This document shows positions 31,231 through 61,685 of a stretch of 61,685 nt of DNA, in pieces. The position numbers and the translations under genes are program-made. The DNA is from Pontibacterium sinense (lineage in GTDB: Bacteria; Pseudomonadota; Gammaproteobacteria; Pseudomonadales; Balneatricaceae): assembly GCF_015209595.1 (NCBI RefSeq), contig NZ_JADEYS010000026.1, forward strand, positions 1 to 61,685, written 5' to 3'. How positions within the stretch are numbered: the stretch's first letter is position 1; the number at the start of each line of letters is the position of its first letter. The notes under the pieces are model-generated. The model was not told the DNA's origin. It saw nothing but the letters and a program-made list of their open reading frames with translations, and searched no databases.

Positions 31231-31350
31231 AGATCCTCTCTCGACACGGCAAAGCCTGAGCAATCAGGTGACGCAAAGTCACGGGTCCCTCTGGGATAGC
31301 CGGACCACCGAAGGAGAGCCTCATTCACGGACAATCTATTGTGAGGATCT
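31231..31350 (+). ncRNA. Cyclic di-GMP-I (GEMM) riboswitch 1
   Basis: The leader contains the GEMM-I core: GGCAAAGCC, then GACGCAAAGTCACGGGTCC, then GATAGCCGGACCACCG. P1 can form between CTCTC (31236-31240) and GAGAG. A competing helix is possible between AGATCCTC (31231-31238) and GAGGATCT (31343-31350), which overlaps P1, a plausible expression platform. It ends about 25 nt before the ATG of the small secreted protein at 31376, suggesting control of translation. Confidence 0.9.
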
Positions 31351-45356: not shown

Positions 45357-45514
45357 CATGACCGTGTCATCCATAAAAAATGTAAAGCGTGCTTAACGGA
45401 TGAAAACTACTCAAGCCCGTTTGTTCGCGATGCCGACATCGCTTCACTAAACTGAATATACACTGAACACCCGCCCTGACACGTACAACCCCATTTTTAG
45501 AAGGTGGATCAGGT

Positions 45515-46702
45515 ATGAATACCTTGCGGAGAAAACAAAAAGGTTTAGCAACCATTGAATATGCGCTTGCCGGCGTACTGGTTGCAGCCGTTGTCGTCGT
45601 TAGTTTCCAATCCCTCGGAAATACGGTTACAGGCAATATTGATAATCTTTCGATTGCAATGAACAGCGGTGCCCCGATCACTCCTAATGGAGGTGGCGGC
45701 GATACATCGACAACTACGAGCTCGTCTACTAGTTCAAGCAGCAGCTCGCCAGATAGCGGTGACAGCAGTTCAGGCAACTCCAGTGATACAGCATCCAACA
45801 ATGCTGGCGGCAGCACAGGTGACACTGGAGGGTTCTCAGGCGGCAGCGACGGATCAACAAATAGCTCTGGTGGGTCCGCAGATGGTAATGGTAGCTCTAC
45901 AAATGGCACCGGCGGGTTCGCAGGGGGTAACGGTGGCTCTACAAGCGGTACCGGTGGGTCCGCAGGTGGTAACGGCGGCTCTACAAGCGGCACCGGCGGG
46001 TTCGCGGGGGGTAATGGTGGTTCTACAAACGGCACCGGCGGGTTCACAGATGGTAATGGTGGCTCTACAAGCGGTACCGGTACCGGCGGGTTCGCAGATG
46101 GTAACGGTGGCTCTACAAGCGGTACCGGTGGGTCCGCAGGTGGTAACGGTGGCTCTACAAGCGGTACCGTTGGGTCCGCAGGTGGTAACGGTGGCTCTAC
46201 AAGCGGTACTGGCGGGTTCGCAGATGGTAACGGTGGTTCCACAAACGGTACCGGCGGGTTCGCAGACGGTAATGGAGCTTCTACAAGCGGCACCAGCGGG
46301 TTTGCGGGGGGTAACGGTGGCTCCGCAAGTGATACAGGCGGCGTCACAGGTGGCAATAGTGGCGGTATAGCAAGCACCGGCGATTTGGGTTCTACCGCAG
46401 CGGGTATTGAAGGCGAAAGTGGCTCCAGTAATGTTTCCGCCAAGAGCCCTTTAGCTGACTCCAATTCCAATGCAGCGGCTTCATCGGGTAGCGCTTTGTC
46501 TTTGGCCTCCAATAGTTCGGGCTCTACAACGCACAAGGCCGCTAAATCAGCGTCTCTGGGGCCTGACTCAGAAGGAGAGTTGGGTACGACGTTCTGGCTC
46601 CTATTATTTGGACTATTCCCGTTTTTTTGGTGGATTCTATCCAAACTCATTCGTAACGATGATCGACAACAACCACGTAGCCGACGTCATATTGCAGCTT
46701 AG
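45515..46702 (+). CDS. Flp-type prepilin head fused to Gly/Ser/Thr repeat domain and C-terminal anchor
   Basis: A 395-residue protein of unusual design. The N-terminus QKGLATIEYALAGVLV is a class III (Flp/Tad) prepilin signal with cleavage after Gly and Glu5 in place, giving a 50-60 residue pilin-like helix. Residues 58-290 are Gly/Ser/Thr/Asn-rich, with about eleven 14-residue units of the GGNGGSTSGTGGFA type. The C-terminus has a hydrophobic segment (TFWLLLFGLFPFFWWILSKLI) and a basic tail (RSRRHIAA), like a sorting or stop-transfer signal. Normal Flp pilins are about 60-80 residues. No tad machinery is in the window. An ORF antisense to the repeats is a shadow. A terminator follows. Confidence 0.8.
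   Translation: MNTLRRKQKGLATIEYALAGVLVAAVVVVSFQSLGNTVTGNIDNLSIAMNSGAPITPNGGGGDTSTTTSSSTSSSSSSPDSGDSSSGNSSDTASNNAGGSTGDTGGFSGGSDGSTNSSGGSADGNGSSTNGTGGFAGGNGGSTSGTGGSAGGNGGSTSGTGGFAGGNGGSTNGTGGFTDGNGGSTSGTGTGGFADGNGGSTSGTGGSAGGNGGSTSGTVGSAGGNGGSTSGTGGFADGNGGSTNGTGGFADGNGASTSGTSGFAGGNGGSASDTGGVTGGNSGGIASTGDLGSTAAGIEGESGSSNVSAKSPLADSNSNAAASSGSALSLASNSSGSTTHKAAKSASLGPDSEGELGTTFWLLLFGLFPFFWWILSKLIRNDDRQQPRSRRHIAA
45881..46345. repeat. 42-bp tandem repeats inside the Flp-type fusion gene
   Basis: About eleven imperfect copies of a 42-bp unit coding for 14 residues (GGNGGSTSGTGGSA/FA). One copy has two extra residues (GT). Copies differ mostly by single bases, as expected for recombination-driven length change. 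Confidence 0.85.
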
Positions 46703-46801: not shown

Positions 46802-47728
46802 ATGAAGCGCTTCTTCAGTATATTGTTTGCCACACTAATCGCCCTCCATGCGCATGCTGATTTGGAGTGGATATCCCCACTGAGCACCGACCATCCTAAT
46901 GTTGGTAAAGTTTACGATTTACGGACACAAGAAGCCGTTGAACCTCAATCATTACTGGCTGCATTGAAGAATCATGATGTTATCTTAATCGGTGAAAAGC
47001 ATGACAACCCTGATCACCATCGCCTGGAACAGATCATATTGGGGACATTAATAAATGCTTCTGACAAACCTTCGGTCATTCTTGAAATGCTTGATGAGAG
47101 CCAATCTAATGCCACAACCATAATCCAGGCTTCGGATTCTGACGACGAGCTTAAAAAAACACTTAACTGGAACGAAAAAGGTTGGCCTTGGGAGTACTAT
47201 GGACCTATCGTTCGCCAAATCCTCTCTGAAGACGCAACGCTCTTAGTGGGTAACATATCGCGCAGCAAAGTTAGAAGCATCTACAAAGACGGCACAGAAG
47301 CTTTAATCACTGATTCGCGGTTTAAGACAGTGCTTGAAATGAGCAATACAATCCGATCATCTCTTCTGGACGAAATTTACGAGCAGCACTGTGAAATGAT
47401 GCCCCGAGAGCGTTTATCACCCATGGTAAATATCCAATTGGCACGAGATGCATATATGGCTGCAGCAATTGATGGCGTGAAATCGTCACAGACGATCCTC
47501 ATTGCGGGTGGGTACCATGTCCGCAAAGATACGGCCGTTCCGCTGCATCTGCGTCTGAGAAAAAGTAACAAACACCCCTTGGTAATCATGTTGCAAGAAG
47601 TTGATCCAACGTTACAAAACAATCAAGATACTCTCCGGGAGATGCAACGTCAGGCTGACTATGTTTGGTTTACTCCTCGCTTCACTGATCGTGACTACTG
47701 CAAAGACCTCAAAACAAGTCAGAAATAA
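46802..47728 (+). CDS. ChaN-family haem-uptake-like protein
   Basis: A 308-residue protein with a signal peptide (FFSILFATLIALHAHA, about residues 3-18) but no lipobox Cys. It has VILIGEKHDNPDHHRLEQ, SVILEMLDESQ, WPWEYYGPIV and ILIAGGYHVRKDTAVPLHL, the pattern of ChaN-like proteins (haem-binding, iron regulated). The ATG at 46802 gives the signal sequence. It lies after a terminator, so probably is a separate unit. Confidence 0.82.
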   Translation: MKRFFSILFATLIALHAHADLEWISPLSTDHPNVGKVYDLRTQEAVEPQSLLAALKNHDVILIGEKHDNPDHHRLEQIILGTLINASDKPSVILEMLDESQSNATTIIQASDSDDELKKTLNWNEKGWPWEYYGPIVRQILSEDATLLVGNISRSKVRSIYKDGTEALITDSRFKTVLEMSNTIRSSLLDEIYEQHCEMMPRERLSPMVNIQLARDAYMAAAIDGVKSSQTILIAGGYHVRKDTAVPLHLRLRKSNKHPLVIMLQEVDPTLQNNQDTLREMQRQADYVWFTPRFTDRDYCKDLKTSQK

Positions 47729-47859
47729 ATATCCGTTACAGAGTGCTTTATTTTGGCTGGCCGAACAAATGCTTTTAAACATAGAAATATCAGACCAAGA
47801 CAACAAATTACGAAATACTTCGTATTGCCCTGATACTACTTTAGGTCCTTAATTAACCT

Positions 47860-48080
47860 TAACTGTTACGGCTTTTCCAGCGAAAGAGCCGACAACAGGC
47901 GGGCTTCCTGATCAAAGCCGAAAATCAGGAAATCCGGAGAGCAAGGATGCTCCAGAGCTCTATATGAGCAGATACTGAATACATATTACGATTTTCTACA
48001 GTGAAGAGTTGTTCAAAGCCGAAAGACAATTCCTTACTGTCTCGATCCTAAGGGCACGTTATTCGTGCCCTTTCTTATTT
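47860..48080 (+). ncRNA. Candidate structured RNA with two hairpins sharing an 11-nt loop
   Basis: Hairpin A: TTCCTGAT (47905-47912) and ATCAGGAA (47924-47931) enclose CAAAGCCGAAA. Hairpin B: GAGTTGTT (48006-48013) and GACAATTC (48025-48032) enclose exactly the same loop. The stems are unrelated in sequence, yet both are 8 bp, which suggests structural conservation. An earlier hairpin (about 47869-47891, CGGCTTTT...AAAGAGCCG) and GAGCA-AGGA-TGCTC (47938-47951) also fold; the AGGA loop resembles a CsrA/RsmA site. A perfect terminator follows at 48050. No ORF of note lies within. The 5' end is a guess. Confidence 0.55.
48050..48080 (+). terminator. Rho-independent terminator of the candidate RNA
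   Basis: AAGGGCACG (48050-48058) pairs perfectly with CGTGCCCTT (48064-48072), followed by TTCTTATTT. It is 320 bp beyond the ChaN-like gene, too far to be a simple gene-end signal. Confidence 0.85.
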
Positions 48081-48182
48081 CTGCCCTCCTCTTACTACTT
48101 TTTTTAGAAGTACTGACCAACTATCAGGTAATACTTCTGCCATACCTGTATGTGTTTTTTATTTGTCATTTCAAACACGCAT

Positions 48183-48210
48183 AAAAAACACAGGAACCCG
48201 AAGGTTCCTG
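48183..48210 (-). terminator. Rho-independent terminator of the aldehyde dehydrogenase
   Basis: CAGGAACC (48191-48198) pairs with GGTTCCTG (48203-48210) around CGAA. On the minus strand it is followed by TGTGTTTTTT. Confidence 0.85.
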
Positions 48211-48313
48211 CGAACTCCAGCATGAGAAATCGCTAGACAGCCAAGGTGACAAGAAAAAGAGGGCTGCTACCAGCATGATGGCCGGCAGCAGCGAGGGGGA
48301 AAACGGGAAAGGA

Positions 48314-49726
48314 TTACTTGTTGATATTAAGGGTCTGAGGCACTGTATATTCCAGCAGCCCTTCCTGTCCGAACTCCACACCAAAGCCAGACATTTTACA
48401 GCCACCAAACGGAGCATGTGGCAGCACTTCAGCGTGACCGTTAATCCATGCAGTTCCGCACTCCAGGCGTTGAGCGATCTTCTGAGCGCCTTCAATGTCA
48501 GAAGACCAAACAGAACCACCCAGACCCACATCGCAGCTATTCGCCCGCTCTACCGCATCATCTACGTCACTATAACGAATGACAGGCAGTGTTGGACCAA
48601 ACTGTTCCTCAGTCACAATACGCATATCATCGGTAACGTTGGCGACAATAGTAGGTGGATAGAAGAAACCTTTGCCTTCTAACGGCTGACCGCCGCATAG
48701 AACAGAGGCTCCATTTTCTCTGGCATCATCAACCAGGTCTTTAACCAAATCGAACTGGTCCTTGTTTTGTACAGGGCCGAAGGTCGTACCTTCTGCCATA
48801 CCGTCACCCACAGATTGAGCGTTGGCGAGTTCAACCAACTTGTCACACACTTGGTCATATTGGGTTTCATGAACATACAGGCGCTTCAGTGCTGCACAGG
48901 TCTGCCCCATGTTCAGGAATGCAGTCTGGAAAATACCTTCGGCAATCGCGTTTACATCAGCATCCGGCAGGATAATACCTGCGTCGTTACCACCCAGCTC
49001 CAGTGTCAGACGCTTCAGGTTACCGGCGGCGTTACGCATAATGGCCTGACCGGTTGGCGTGGAGCCCGTAAATACAATCTTACGAATTTTTTCGTGACCG
49101 GTGATCGCACTACCAATACCGCTTTCGCCAGTCACGAGGTTCATGACACCTGCAGGTACTTCTTTACTGATAATTTCAGCCAGCATGATGGTGTTCAGGG
49201 GTGTCAGGCCGGATGGCTTACAGACAACCGTATTACCCGTACGTAGCGCTGGCATGATATGCCACACTGCAATCATGAGCGGCCAGTTCCATGGGGTAAT
49301 GGAGCCCACTACGCCCAATGGCTTGCGGTGAAGTTCAATGCGCTTGTTATCGCTGTCTTCCAGTACCTCTACAGGAATCTCCAAATCCGCGGTGTAACGC
49401 GTCCAGGCAACAGCTCCACCAACTTCGGCCTGAGCCAGGAACATTGGCTTGCCCTGCTCTTTTACAATGATTTCAGCCAGCTCAGCCGCATTCGCTTCGA
49501 TACCGTCGGCGATACGGTGTAACGCTTGTTTACGCTCTGCATCACTACTGTACTGCCAGGTTTTAAATGCCTCATCTGCCGCATCTACGGCATCATTCAA
49601 CTGCTCAACGGTTGCGTATGGACACGCTGATACAACCTCTTCGGTTGCCGGGTTGATTACATCAAAAGTTCCCCGGCCACCCGCAACTTGTTCGCCATTA
49701 ATAATTAAACTGTATTCTCTCTGCAT
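48314..49726 (-). CDS. Aldehyde dehydrogenase family protein
   Basis: A 470-residue aldehyde dehydrogenase with TPWNWPLMIAVW, FTGSTPTG, LELGGNDAGI, the nucleophile region NMGQTCAALKRLYVH and C-terminal PFGGCKMSGFG. It is a different subgroup from 12889-14385. It lies downstream of the second porin on the same strand (86 bp between them) and probably shares its promoter. It could oxidise aldehydes made by QHNDH copy 2; this is inference from the shared upstream repeats. Start ATG at 49726 with GGAGG-like sequence not evident but AAAGGACC nearby. Confidence 0.87.
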   Translation of the reverse strand: MQREYSLIINGEQVAGGRGTFDVINPATEEVVSACPYATVEQLNDAVDAADEAFKTWQYSSDAERKQALHRIADGIEANAAELAEIIVKEQGKPMFLAQAEVGGAVAWTRYTADLEIPVEVLEDSDNKRIELHRKPLGVVGSITPWNWPLMIAVWHIMPALRTGNTVVCKPSGLTPLNTIMLAEIISKEVPAGVMNLVTGESGIGSAITGHEKIRKIVFTGSTPTGQAIMRNAAGNLKRLTLELGGNDAGIILPDADVNAIAEGIFQTAFLNMGQTCAALKRLYVHETQYDQVCDKLVELANAQSVGDGMAEGTTFGPVQNKDQFDLVKDLVDDARENGASVLCGGQPLEGKGFFYPPTIVANVTDDMRIVTEEQFGPTLPVIRYSDVDDAVERANSCDVGLGGSVWSSDIEGAQKIAQRLECGTAWINGHAEVLPHAPFGGCKMSGFGVEFGQEGLLEYTVPQTLNINK

Positions 49727-56528: not shown

Positions 56529-56670
56529 GAAAGATCCTCTCTGGATAAAGGCACAACCTGGGAAACCAGGTGTCGCAAAGTCACGGGTCCCATCTTTGTT
56601 GTGGGGACGGCCGCACTGCCGATGGAGAGTATACCCTCGCGCGTGAATACGTAGCTGTTGAGGATCTTTC
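56529..56670 (+). ncRNA. Cyclic di-GMP-I (GEMM) riboswitch 2
   Basis: The leader has the GEMM-I core: GGCACAACC, GTCGCAAAGTCACGGGTCC and GACGGCCGCACTGCCGATGG. P1 is CTCTC/GAGAG. GAAAGATCCTC (56529-56539) is perfectly complementary to GAGGATCTTTC (56660-56670), competing with P1, as in riboswitch 1. A further hairpin CGCAAA/TTTGCG (56670-56686) runs into the ribosome site GGAG (56686-56689) just before the ATG at 56696, so translational control is likely. Confidence 0.87.
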
Positions 56671-59681: not shown

Positions 59682-61685
59682 TTAGTTAAGTGGGCAGTCC
59701 CCTGGGCCATTATTGGCATTGTCCAGATCAGTTGCGAGGCCGAGCATATCGCTACGGCTACCAGTCAACGCGTCGTTCACGCTGCTAACCACGCCACTGA
59801 GGGAATATGCAACATCGCTGTTCGCCTCATTAAGCAGTGCGGCTACCGCAGCACGCAACAGAATCCGCGCAGCACCGAGGTCACCTCGACCACCTTTAAA
59901 GCGCAGTGCATCGACAAGGCTCACATTATCCAACCCGAACTTATCCGGTACATTGAACACAGACTCGAGTGACTGGCCTGTAGAGTAAACCTGCCATGAG
60001 TCGTGATGCTGAGGTACTTTCCAATAACCTGGAGTACAACCTTCGTTGCCTGCCAGCATGTTATTGAATACGCATACCACAGTCTCACCTGACGCTAAGT
60101 TAATAGCAGAAGGATCACTACCATCATCACAGCTAGCACCTACCAGCGTCCAACCAGCTGGCAATGGCATATCCTCAGCAACTGAGTAAATGCCCGGTAC
60201 CAGACCGCCAGAGTCATTGGTCTGTCCATCCATTAGACTGAACTCCTGACCGTAGTTTGACGTAAAGTTAAACGACTGCACCGCACCATCTGGCTCTGTC
60301 TGTTTTTCGACAATGATATGGCCACGTTTGGTGTTGGTGAAGGTACAAACAACATGTTCACCGTCATCAATGCTGATGGTTGCTGTACGCGCACCCAGAT
60401 TCCATGTAGTAGTACCAGTCACACCGTCTCTTTCATCAGTGCAAGACAGCGAGGTCAGGTCGTAATCGATCGCATTAGGATCGTTCTCGGTCACTACATA
60501 TATAGCCGGTGGCAGATTCACGAAGTTCTCGGAATCAGAAACCGGAACACCTTCCGTAATGGTGGTGATACTGAACGGACCCAGATCGCCGCCATAGCCA
60601 AAGGTATCAACTCCACCATGACTGATCTTCCTGATCTCGATACTACCTGGCGCAGCCAGTTTGGTGTTGGTGAATACGCATTCGACTGTTTCACCCGGCT
60701 CTACATTGATCGTCGCGCGACGATACGTAGGACTGATTGGATTGTCATCTCCGACACTATTAGCATCACTGCACGTAATATCTGTCAGGGAGAAGAGCTG
60801 CAATGCAGGGTCATCTTCGCTAACCAGATACTGCCCAGGCAACACATCGGTGATGGTTTGAGAGCCAGTCGGAACGGCATCAGTTGTCACCAAGTTTCTC
60901 AGCAACAGATCAGGGCTACTGCTATAGGAGAACGTACCTCCCAGATCCAGCAGTGCATTACCTGTAGTCACTTTAGTGATGATGATCTGACCACGGTCGA
61001 GACGGTTGTAGAACGTACATTTCACGGTTTCGCCCGGATCCAGTTTAATGGCATTCGGATGGCTACCGTCGTCACAGGTGGCTTTGCTTAGCTGCCAACC
61101 CGCAGGTACGTTTTCGCTGACACTGTAGGTACCTGGCAACAAGTCGCCGGAACCTTTGGTCTGATTATCACTCAGGCCGAACGGTGAGCCGTAGTCGGAG
61201 GTGAAATTAAACACCTGACTATGACCATCGGGATCGGTCTGTTTCTCAACGATGATCTGACCACGGTCGAGACGGTTGTAGAACGTACATTTCACGGTTT
61301 CGCCCGGATCCAGTTTAATGGTATTCGGATGAGAACCGTCGTCACAGGTGGCTTTACTTAACTGCCAACCCGCTGGAACGTTTTCGCTGACACTGTAGGT
61401 ACCTGGCAACAAGTCACCGGAACCTTTGGTCTGATTATCACTCAGGCCGAACGGTGAGCCGTAGTCGGAGGTGAAGTTAAACACCTGACTATGACCATCA
61501 GGATCGGTCTGTTTCTCAACGATGATCTGACCACGGTCAAGACGGTTGTAGAACGTACATTTCACGGTTTCGCCCGGATCCAGTTTAATGGTATTCGGAT
61601 GAGAACCGTCGTCACAGGTGGCTTTACTTAACTGCCAACCCGCTGGAACGTTTTCGCTGACACTGTAGGTACCTGGCAACAAGTC
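59682..61685 (-). CDS. Repeat-rich surface protein with SpaA/prealbumin-like domains (5' end beyond the window)
   Basis: At least 667 residues are visible; the reading frame is open at the right edge and the N-terminus is missing. It has repeated 90-residue SpaA/Cna-B-like (prealbumin-like) domains with GQIIVEKQTDPDG, LPGTYSVSE and GETVKCTFYN, then diverged copies. The C-terminus starts with CTPGYWK and has an Ala/Leu-rich helical part ending DCPLN. Each domain holds a pair of Cys. No sortase signal is visible. It is probably a secreted or cell-surface stalk or adhesin. Confidence 0.8.
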   Translation of the reverse strand, partial: DLLPGTYSVSENVPAGWQLSKATCDDGSHPNTIKLDPGETVKCTFYNRLDRGQIIVEKQTDPDGHSQVFNFTSDYGSPFGLSDNQTKGSGDLLPGTYSVSENVPAGWQLSKATCDDGSHPNTIKLDPGETVKCTFYNRLDRGQIIVEKQTDPDGHSQVFNFTSDYGSPFGLSDNQTKGSGDLLPGTYSVSENVPAGWQLSKATCDDGSHPNAIKLDPGETVKCTFYNRLDRGQIIITKVTTGNALLDLGGTFSYSSSPDLLLRNLVTTDAVPTGSQTITDVLPGQYLVSEDDPALQLFSLTDITCSDANSVGDDNPISPTYRRATINVEPGETVECVFTNTKLAAPGSIEIRKISHGGVDTFGYGGDLGPFSITTITEGVPVSDSENFVNLPPAIYVVTENDPNAIDYDLTSLSCTDERDGVTGTTTWNLGARTATISIDDGEHVVCTFTNTKRGHIIVEKQTEPDGAVQSFNFTSNYGQEFSLMDGQTNDSGGLVPGIYSVAEDMPLPAGWTLVGASCDDGSDPSAINLASGETVVCVFNNMLAGNEGCTPGYWKVPQHHDSWQVYSTGQSLESVFNVPDKFGLDNVSLVDALRFKGGRGDLGAARILLRAAVAALLNEANSDVAYSLSGVVSSVNDALTGSRSDMLGLATDLDNANNGPGDCPLN
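60991..61685. repeat. 270-bp near-identical tandem repeats
   Basis: The same sequence restarts at 60991, 61261 and 61531, exactly 270 bp (90 codons) apart, with only a few base changes (for example CGAGA versus CAAGA). The array continues past the window edge. Older, diverged copies occur at 60000-60990. Confidence 0.92.

Follow-up and report, generated by a model that had tools for sequence, protein, structure and literature searches.

A Candidate Small RNA of Pontibacterium Presenting the Same Loop Sequence on Unrelated Stems

Results

The window analysed here is a whole contig of 61,685 bases from a Pontibacterium genome of 4.6 Mb (G000). A ChaN-family gene ends at position 47728 and is followed, about 130 nt further on and on the same strand, by a locus that most likely specifies a stand-alone RNA of about 220 nt, extending on the + strand from roughly 47861 to 48082 and framed by an inverted repeat and an intrinsic terminator. 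On the downstream side an aldehyde dehydrogenase gene is oriented convergently to the RNA. Upstream of these features the window contains a repetitive glycine/serine/threonine-rich open reading frame of 395 aa without a Pfam match (45515–46702, + strand), and opposite to it a proline-rich frame of 427 aa is open on the – strand (45367–46650).

Judging from the sequence, the fold and the alignment, the RNA would start near 47861 and begin with hairpin 1 (47863–47898), which includes the conserved UCCAGCGAA. This is followed by hairpin A (47900–47936), the segment of a hairpin with an AGGA loop (47937–47952, GAGAGCA-AGGA-UGCUC), hairpin B (47998–48040) and the terminator (48050–48082). The sequence CAAAGCCGAAA is found at 47913–47923 and again at 48014–48024, i.e., 101 nt apart, with no further match on either strand of the 61,685 bases; 0.01 matches were expected, and two copies occurred in none of 100 shuffles. 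In the minimum-energy fold as well as in the centroid both copies form 11-nt loops, in hairpin A and hairpin B, respectively, on 8-bp stems that are unrelated in sequence (UUCCUGAU/AUCAGGAA as opposed to GAGUUGUU/GACAAUUC), and each stem is extended by an outer one. Positions and folds thus agree with the initial annotation, in which an identical 11-nt loop was described on two unrelated 8-bp stems. The window was also scanned for pairs of hairpins with an 8-bp stem (G-U allowed), a common loop of 9–12 nt and a spacing of 30–300 nt; the present pair and one other, near 61.2–61.4 kb, were recovered, and none of 60 shuffled windows contained any. The second pair is trivial, as its source is a stretch (61100–61520) that is duplicated at 270-nt spacing. 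The fold energy of the element is –73.9, compared to –52.9 ± 4.5 for shuffled sequences (z = –4.7), and none of 200 shuffles folded as well. The AGGA loop that had been noted alongside the two hairpins is found in the fold on a hairpin at 47939–47952. The terminator had been called perfect, and this is true of its 9-bp stem (48050–48072) but not of its tail, UUUCUUAUUUCU, which is an interrupted U-tract.

The element is located at the same place in four of the five genomes of the genus, namely the window's own and G002, G003 and G004, which by inference are Pontibacterium granulatum A-1, the uncultured Marinobacterium sp. N1E34-Z and an Oceanospirillaceae MAG, respectively. In each of the latter three an open reading frame that is ChaN-like by the look of its translation precedes the element and a dehydrogenase follows it, and G003 has a 127-aa open reading frame on the other strand between the ChaN-like frame and the RNA. 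The fifth genome, G001, has no RNA and no close ortholog of the dehydrogenase (best identity 35%). A DNA search of 57 genomes at E ≤ 0.001 matched five: the match covered the whole query in the window's own genome, G004 (96%) and G002 (78%), positions 73–246 (174 of the 246 in the query) in G003, and the terminator only in a genome of another genus. A covariance search in relatives, proposed initially as a check, gave nine of 116 family genomes at E ≤ 1, the four carriers at E 8e-48 or better and all at full length; the repeated motif is absent from the five weak matches (E 0.02–0.51), which contain at most one AAAGCCGA per locus. When the model was run on 390 genomes of the order (E ≤ 0.01), three matches were obtained. 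The window's own genome accounted for one, and the other two scored 24.8 and 25.8 bits and have no AAAGCC in their central 300-odd bases. The two-copy motif pattern was found in 85 stretches of a collection of 84,980 species, from which records of the genome analysed here may be missing. Of these stretches, 78 lay in stop-free frames at least 97 codons long, and the remaining seven were three genus loci, the sole clear cases among the 85, two Symploca repeat records, one locus of Neisseria wadsworthii and one of another bacterium. The element is restricted to one genus at the search sensitivity used, where the covariance model was built on four sequences and a diverged relative could be missed. 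Both the DNA search and the model found one strong match per genome, and the element therefore does not belong to a repeat family.

Two partial resemblances were seen further afield. In a genome of another genus of the same family (G009, L005, 1501–1532) a similar terminator, AAGGGCAC...GTGCCCTTTCTTGTTTCTG, is followed by repeats of its tail, and the remainder of the RNA is absent. In Symploca sp. SIO2E6 (L170 and L124) a dispersed repeat outside long open frames carries TCAAAGCCGA at a spacing of about 100 nt, the remaining sequence being different from that of the Pontibacterium RNA.

Differences between the orthologs are unevenly distributed. Compared to the window, the most distant ortholog, that of G003, differs at none of the 20 positions of the two 10-nt motifs, none of the 16 positions of the AGGA hairpin and one of the 18 positions of the terminator stem, and at 86 of 189 positions elsewhere, a count that is somewhat overstated because gaps in the MAFFT alignment were taken as differences and the diverged hairpin A stem of G003 was placed imperfectly. 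The corresponding numbers for G002 are 1/20, 0/16, 0/18 and 56/189, and the close ortholog of G004 differs at 8/189 positions elsewhere and at none in the motifs, the AGGA hairpin and the terminator stem. With motifs and AGGA hairpin pooled and compared to the rest, Fisher's test gave p = 6e-9 for G003 and p = 2e-4 for G002. That loops and AGGA hairpin are fixed while the remainder diverges bears out the early proposal of a selected RNA structure; a lack of conserved loops and stems in close relatives had been named as evidence against it, and in the relatives examined the element is conserved.

The probability that AAAGCC is unpaired is 0.93–1.00 in hairpins A and B of all four orthologs, the window included. 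Of the 15 pairs of hairpin B, 13 remain standard throughout the four sequences, their changes affecting one side only, and two are broken in one or two sequences; in the terminator stem eight of nine pairs are invariant in the four sequences and one is broken in G003. RNAalifold predicted 60 pairs, among which five show a two-sided change, each in a single sequence, with a small covariation term (–1.06), and three pairs with two-sided change, again in one sequence each, are seen in the alignment of hairpin 1. The minimum-energy folds of the whole RNA of G002 and G003 differ from that of the window around hairpin 1, and that of G002 also differs around the AGGA hairpin. As far as can be judged from the aligned sequences, the loop hairpins A and B are backed by stems that persist under divergence, with no strong covariation. 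A pseudoknot between the loops and CGGCUUU of hairpin 1 fits the window and was rejected on the orthologs, in which this arm reads CGGUUUU, UGGCUUC and CGGUAUC.

A third copy of TCAAAGCCGA is present in G003, where the alignment shows it as 10 nt inserted between hairpins 1 and A, and is less exposed than the loop copies (unpaired probability 0.61 as compared to 0.93–1.00). As this copy is located in a linker, the functional unit would be the linear word, which we read as a sign against a sensor fold and for single-strand recognition by RNA or protein. The two-lobed sensor suggested in the initial annotation loses ground for this reason, and also because no same-strand open reading frame of at least 60 aa begins between element and terminator.

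None of 4227 Rfam families reached its threshold on the element, in keeping with the earlier statement that it fits no known RNA class. DapZ (22.6 bits, gathering score 56) matched mainly at the terminator, and Magnesium-II (15.5) and RUF20 (10.5) were below threshold and on the other strand; all three were dismissed. Two c-di-GMP-I aptamers (RF01051) are located on the + strand of the window, at 31238–31312 and 56540–56623 (56.2 and 58.5 bits); they are the two matches of this model in the window, and the element is not matched. The heptamer CAAAGCC is found 25 times in the window with 9.2 expected, a number reached by none of 100 shuffles, perhaps as a result of codon-usage bias. It is also a word of one of the two aptamers, and its likeness to a riboswitch segment was treated as a coincidence given its frequency and the lack of a model match. 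No open reading frame of at least 60 aa was found within the element on the + strand. The longest start-to-stop frame inside the RNA has 33 codons in G002 and 24 in each of the other three orthologs. In G000, G004 and G002 it follows one common frame, which passes through motif copy 2 in hairpin B and on through the terminator; the longest one of G003 is located elsewhere, and there the common frame is, by reading, stopped soon after the motif. It is unlikely, from these frames, that a small protein is encoded.

Upstream of the RNA, a near-invariant block in all four orthologs contains the inverted repeat TACGAA-N4-TTCGTA (TACGAA-ATAC-TTCGTA at 47809–47824 in the window), a probable transcription factor site that is matched exactly there in the four genomes. 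A consensus scan found no sigma-70-like site before the RNA. By eye, from sequence and alignment, two core promoters may be proposed on the + strand, TTGCCC-N18-TTAATT (47825–47854) and, alternatively, TTACGA-N17-TGATAC (47808–47836); both are weak candidates of poor likeness to the consensus. If the former is the promoter, the RNA would start beside hairpin 1 and the inverted repeat would have its centre at about –45, as expected of an activator site. With the latter, the repeat would overlap the promoter, as for a repressor. Two exact matches are found elsewhere, both at unrelated places: that of G000 falls within a long open frame, and that of G002 is flanked by genes read as fbp and mpl. 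When at most one mismatch was tolerated, the repeat and its backward control were matched 15/6, 13/11, 8/5 and 7/3 times in four of the five genomes and 7/12 times, i.e., below the control, in G001. Inspection of the exact sites over the five genomes revealed no regulon for the inverted repeat.

The sequence of the AGGA hairpin, GAGAGCAAGGATGCTC, is unchanged at all 16 positions in each of the three other orthologs, and AGGA is unpaired with a probability of 0.82–1.00. The SELEX consensus for CsrA is RUACARGGAUGU, in which ACA was invariant among the ligands and GGA is usually located in a hairpin loop (PMC7652899). In a hand alignment the hairpin agrees with this consensus at nine of 12 positions and contains the core CARGGAUG. 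CsrA is encoded in four of the five genus genomes, the one without a match being 86% complete. CsrA had been listed among possible partners, and the AGGA loop in an invariant hairpin together with the presence of csrA makes this plausible, but ACA is replaced by GCA. Each ortholog has three to four GGA, of which that in AAGGAUG is the sole one conserved in a loop; multiple conserved GGA loop sites of the CsrB/RsmZ type were not found in the four orthologs compared. A sponge of the CsrB type is therefore unlikely, whereas one CsrA contact of the kind made by base-pairing sRNAs like McaS would be plausible. No Csr/Rsm family of Rfam matched the element at threshold, and none was among the three matches obtained up to E 10 at 47700–48320. 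RsmZ, the one Csr/Rsm model run on the genus genomes, gave 33 matches at E ≤ 1 in all five genomes and none over the 44-bit threshold, the best having 35.1 bits (E 3e-6, G000:C23:92239). Four of the 33, the best included, were folded and read as terminators after coding sequence.

Candidate mRNA targets were searched with antisense words of decreasing length. The 10-mer TCGGCTTTGA revealed no translation-start site common to the genomes, where matches were classified by open frames only (20/20 non-self matches in G000, 25/25 in G002, 15/15 in G003, 8/10 in G004, the other two having been removed by a position filter, and 6/27 in G001) and eight were read closely. Searches with the 9-mers before ATG gave 106 and 93 matches; from each set 30 with loci were classified, and the single one flagged is located inside the start of a gene and in G000 only. 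The invariant 8-mer was combined with a Shine-Dalgarno/start pattern, and 37 of 48 and all of 11 matches were examined. The excess over a backward-pattern control (48 vs. 8 and 11 vs. 0) is an unfair test, since GGC-TTT-GA is a common in-frame codon string. Two genes stand out, cheW and a band-7/SPFH gene, identified as CheW and Band_7, beside single-genome candidates such as G002 L324.

In G000 and G004, GGCUUUGAUU is located directly before the Shine-Dalgarno sequence of cheW, between this gene and an upstream gene that we read as cheA. Pairing with hairpin A in G000 could comprise 11 pairs, one of them G-U; seven are within the loop and the others need an opened stem (duplex energies, for G000 only, –16.4 and –13.5 kcal/mol). 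The band-7/SPFH gene starts with AUGUUUGGCUUUGAA in G000, G002 and G004, and loop B could form 12 pairs, one of them G-U, with codons 2–5 (–16.1 to –18.8 kcal/mol in the three genomes). Of the four genomes searched, the cheW site was matched in two, which are close sisters, and the band-7 site in three; neither was matched in G003. Between G000 and G002, 58 of 918 14-nt stretches of the band-7 gene are identical. As the seed is short, several chance matches near start codons are expected per genome. The short seed makes cheW and band-7 weak candidates, as do their post hoc selection, the closeness of G000 to G004, and coding constraint as a possible explanation of the band-7 site.

Discussion

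It is very probable, from the comparisons above, that the locus contains a real RNA element that is under selection and undescribed. With regard to mechanism we favour, with confidence and doubt about evenly balanced, a trans-acting base-pairing sRNA with redundant CAAAGCC seeds and one CsrA-type hairpin. Its expression would be set by a regulator at the inverted repeat, and the RNA would act in trans. The loops would expose CAAAGCC two or three times, and any one copy could initiate a duplex with GGCUUUG(A) close to a translation start, the best candidates being cheW, where pairing would occur upstream of the Shine-Dalgarno sequence, and the band-7/SPFH gene, where it would involve codons 2–5. 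The AGGA hairpin may bind CsrA and thereby bring the RNA into the Csr network, a connection reported for McaS.

The initial annotation had envisaged a sponge for a protein or sRNA, which would rank below base pairing with mRNAs. A protein sponge is the main rival. Here UCAAAGCCRA would be recognised by a single-strand RNA-binding protein that is titrated by the multiple copies, in the way that CsrB titrates CsrA with GGA. This is unlikely but deserves to be taken seriously, since the motif is found two to three times in loops, and in the linker of one relative, no convincing antisense target is common to the genomes, and the adjacent CsrA-type hairpin makes contact with protein plausible. Two to three copies are, however, few for a sponge, and the single-genus range would require a protein or a specificity confined to the genus. 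We know of no protein with the motif UCAAAGCCRA.

It is improbable that the RNA is a CsrA antagonist of the CsrB/RsmZ kind in which the CAAAGCC loops are incidental. Its intergenic location, repeated loop motif and GGA hairpin are shared with CsrB/RsmZ, the AGGA hairpin is invariant in genomes of a genus in which four of five encode CsrA, and no RsmZ-model match exceeded the threshold in these five. On the other hand, CsrB has 22 GGA motifs (PMC10729762), as opposed to the one GGA that is conserved in a loop among the three to four of each Pontibacterium ortholog, and the lack of any change at the 20 motif positions would be left unexplained. Similarly improbable is a sponge for another sRNA with a seed containing GGCUUUGA, which would be in agreement with the well exposed loops and with an antisense complement that is one short repeated word. 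Least probable of all is a cis element in the chaN 3'UTR, a gene for a small protein, or sequence conservation that does not reflect an RNA function: chaN does end some 130 nt upstream on the same strand, and three of the four orthologs have an open short frame that yields FKAE across copy 2, but in G003 this frame is by reading stopped and an opposite-strand open reading frame separates the chaN-like gene from the RNA, the upstream inverted repeat is conserved separately, and the single strong match per genome shows that this is no repeat family.

Returning to base pairing in trans, it is tempting to speculate, although we doubt that every part will hold, that Pontibacterium has an sRNA family that unites a CsrA hairpin with a repeated seed other than an anti-Shine-Dalgarno sequence (UCAAAGCC), that the number of seeds in this family is still evolving by motif insertion, and that the family links CsrA to chemotaxis and membrane-domain mRNAs. 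If true, this would be a new sRNA family in a little-studied marine lineage. It would also offer a natural experiment on the reasons for seed duplication in sRNAs, with orthologs carrying two or three copies on scaffolds that otherwise diverge, to which the one seed copy that is located in a linker and not in a loop would add. Finally, it would extend the idea of CsrA sites inside base-pairing sRNAs.

In the parts of the literature available to us on Pontibacterium small RNAs, on identical loops and on RsmA/GacA sRNAs of Oceanospirillales and Hahella, nothing was found on the present RNA. The closest known systems are architectural ones. In Listeria, LhrC carries redundant short motifs, three in number, of which two lie in loops and one in a single-stranded stretch, and any of them can contact the target (PMC4132741), and the likeness is that of one sRNA with a redundant short motif in several loops. 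In contrast to CAAAGCC, the LhrC motif (UCCC) is rich in C and U and pairs with Shine-Dalgarno regions, and LhrC has five homologs (PMC4132741), whereas the covariance model finds one copy of the Pontibacterium RNA per genome. SmelA075 and SmelA099 of the Rhizobiales have three or four hairpins with similar loops and variable stems; unlike the Pontibacterium RNA, they present an anti-Shine-Dalgarno loop, CCUCCUCCC, and are found in several copies per genome, and no AGGA hairpin of the kind seen here is mentioned in the accessible part of that report (PMC3927594). What the Pontibacterium RNA shares with LhrC and SmelA075 is the repetition of one motif in several loops whose stems diverge. Its motif is not complementary to the Shine-Dalgarno sequence, the complement being GGCUUUG, and the likeness to these two is therefore one of architecture. 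To our knowledge McaS has no repeated identical seed loop. It is a base-pairing sRNA with CsrA-binding GGA sites, two of its four GGA motifs being proven CsrA sites (PMC10729762, PMC7652899). The likeness to McaS would lie in base pairing together with a CsrA-type GGA site, pairing and CsrA binding both being predicted for the Pontibacterium RNA.
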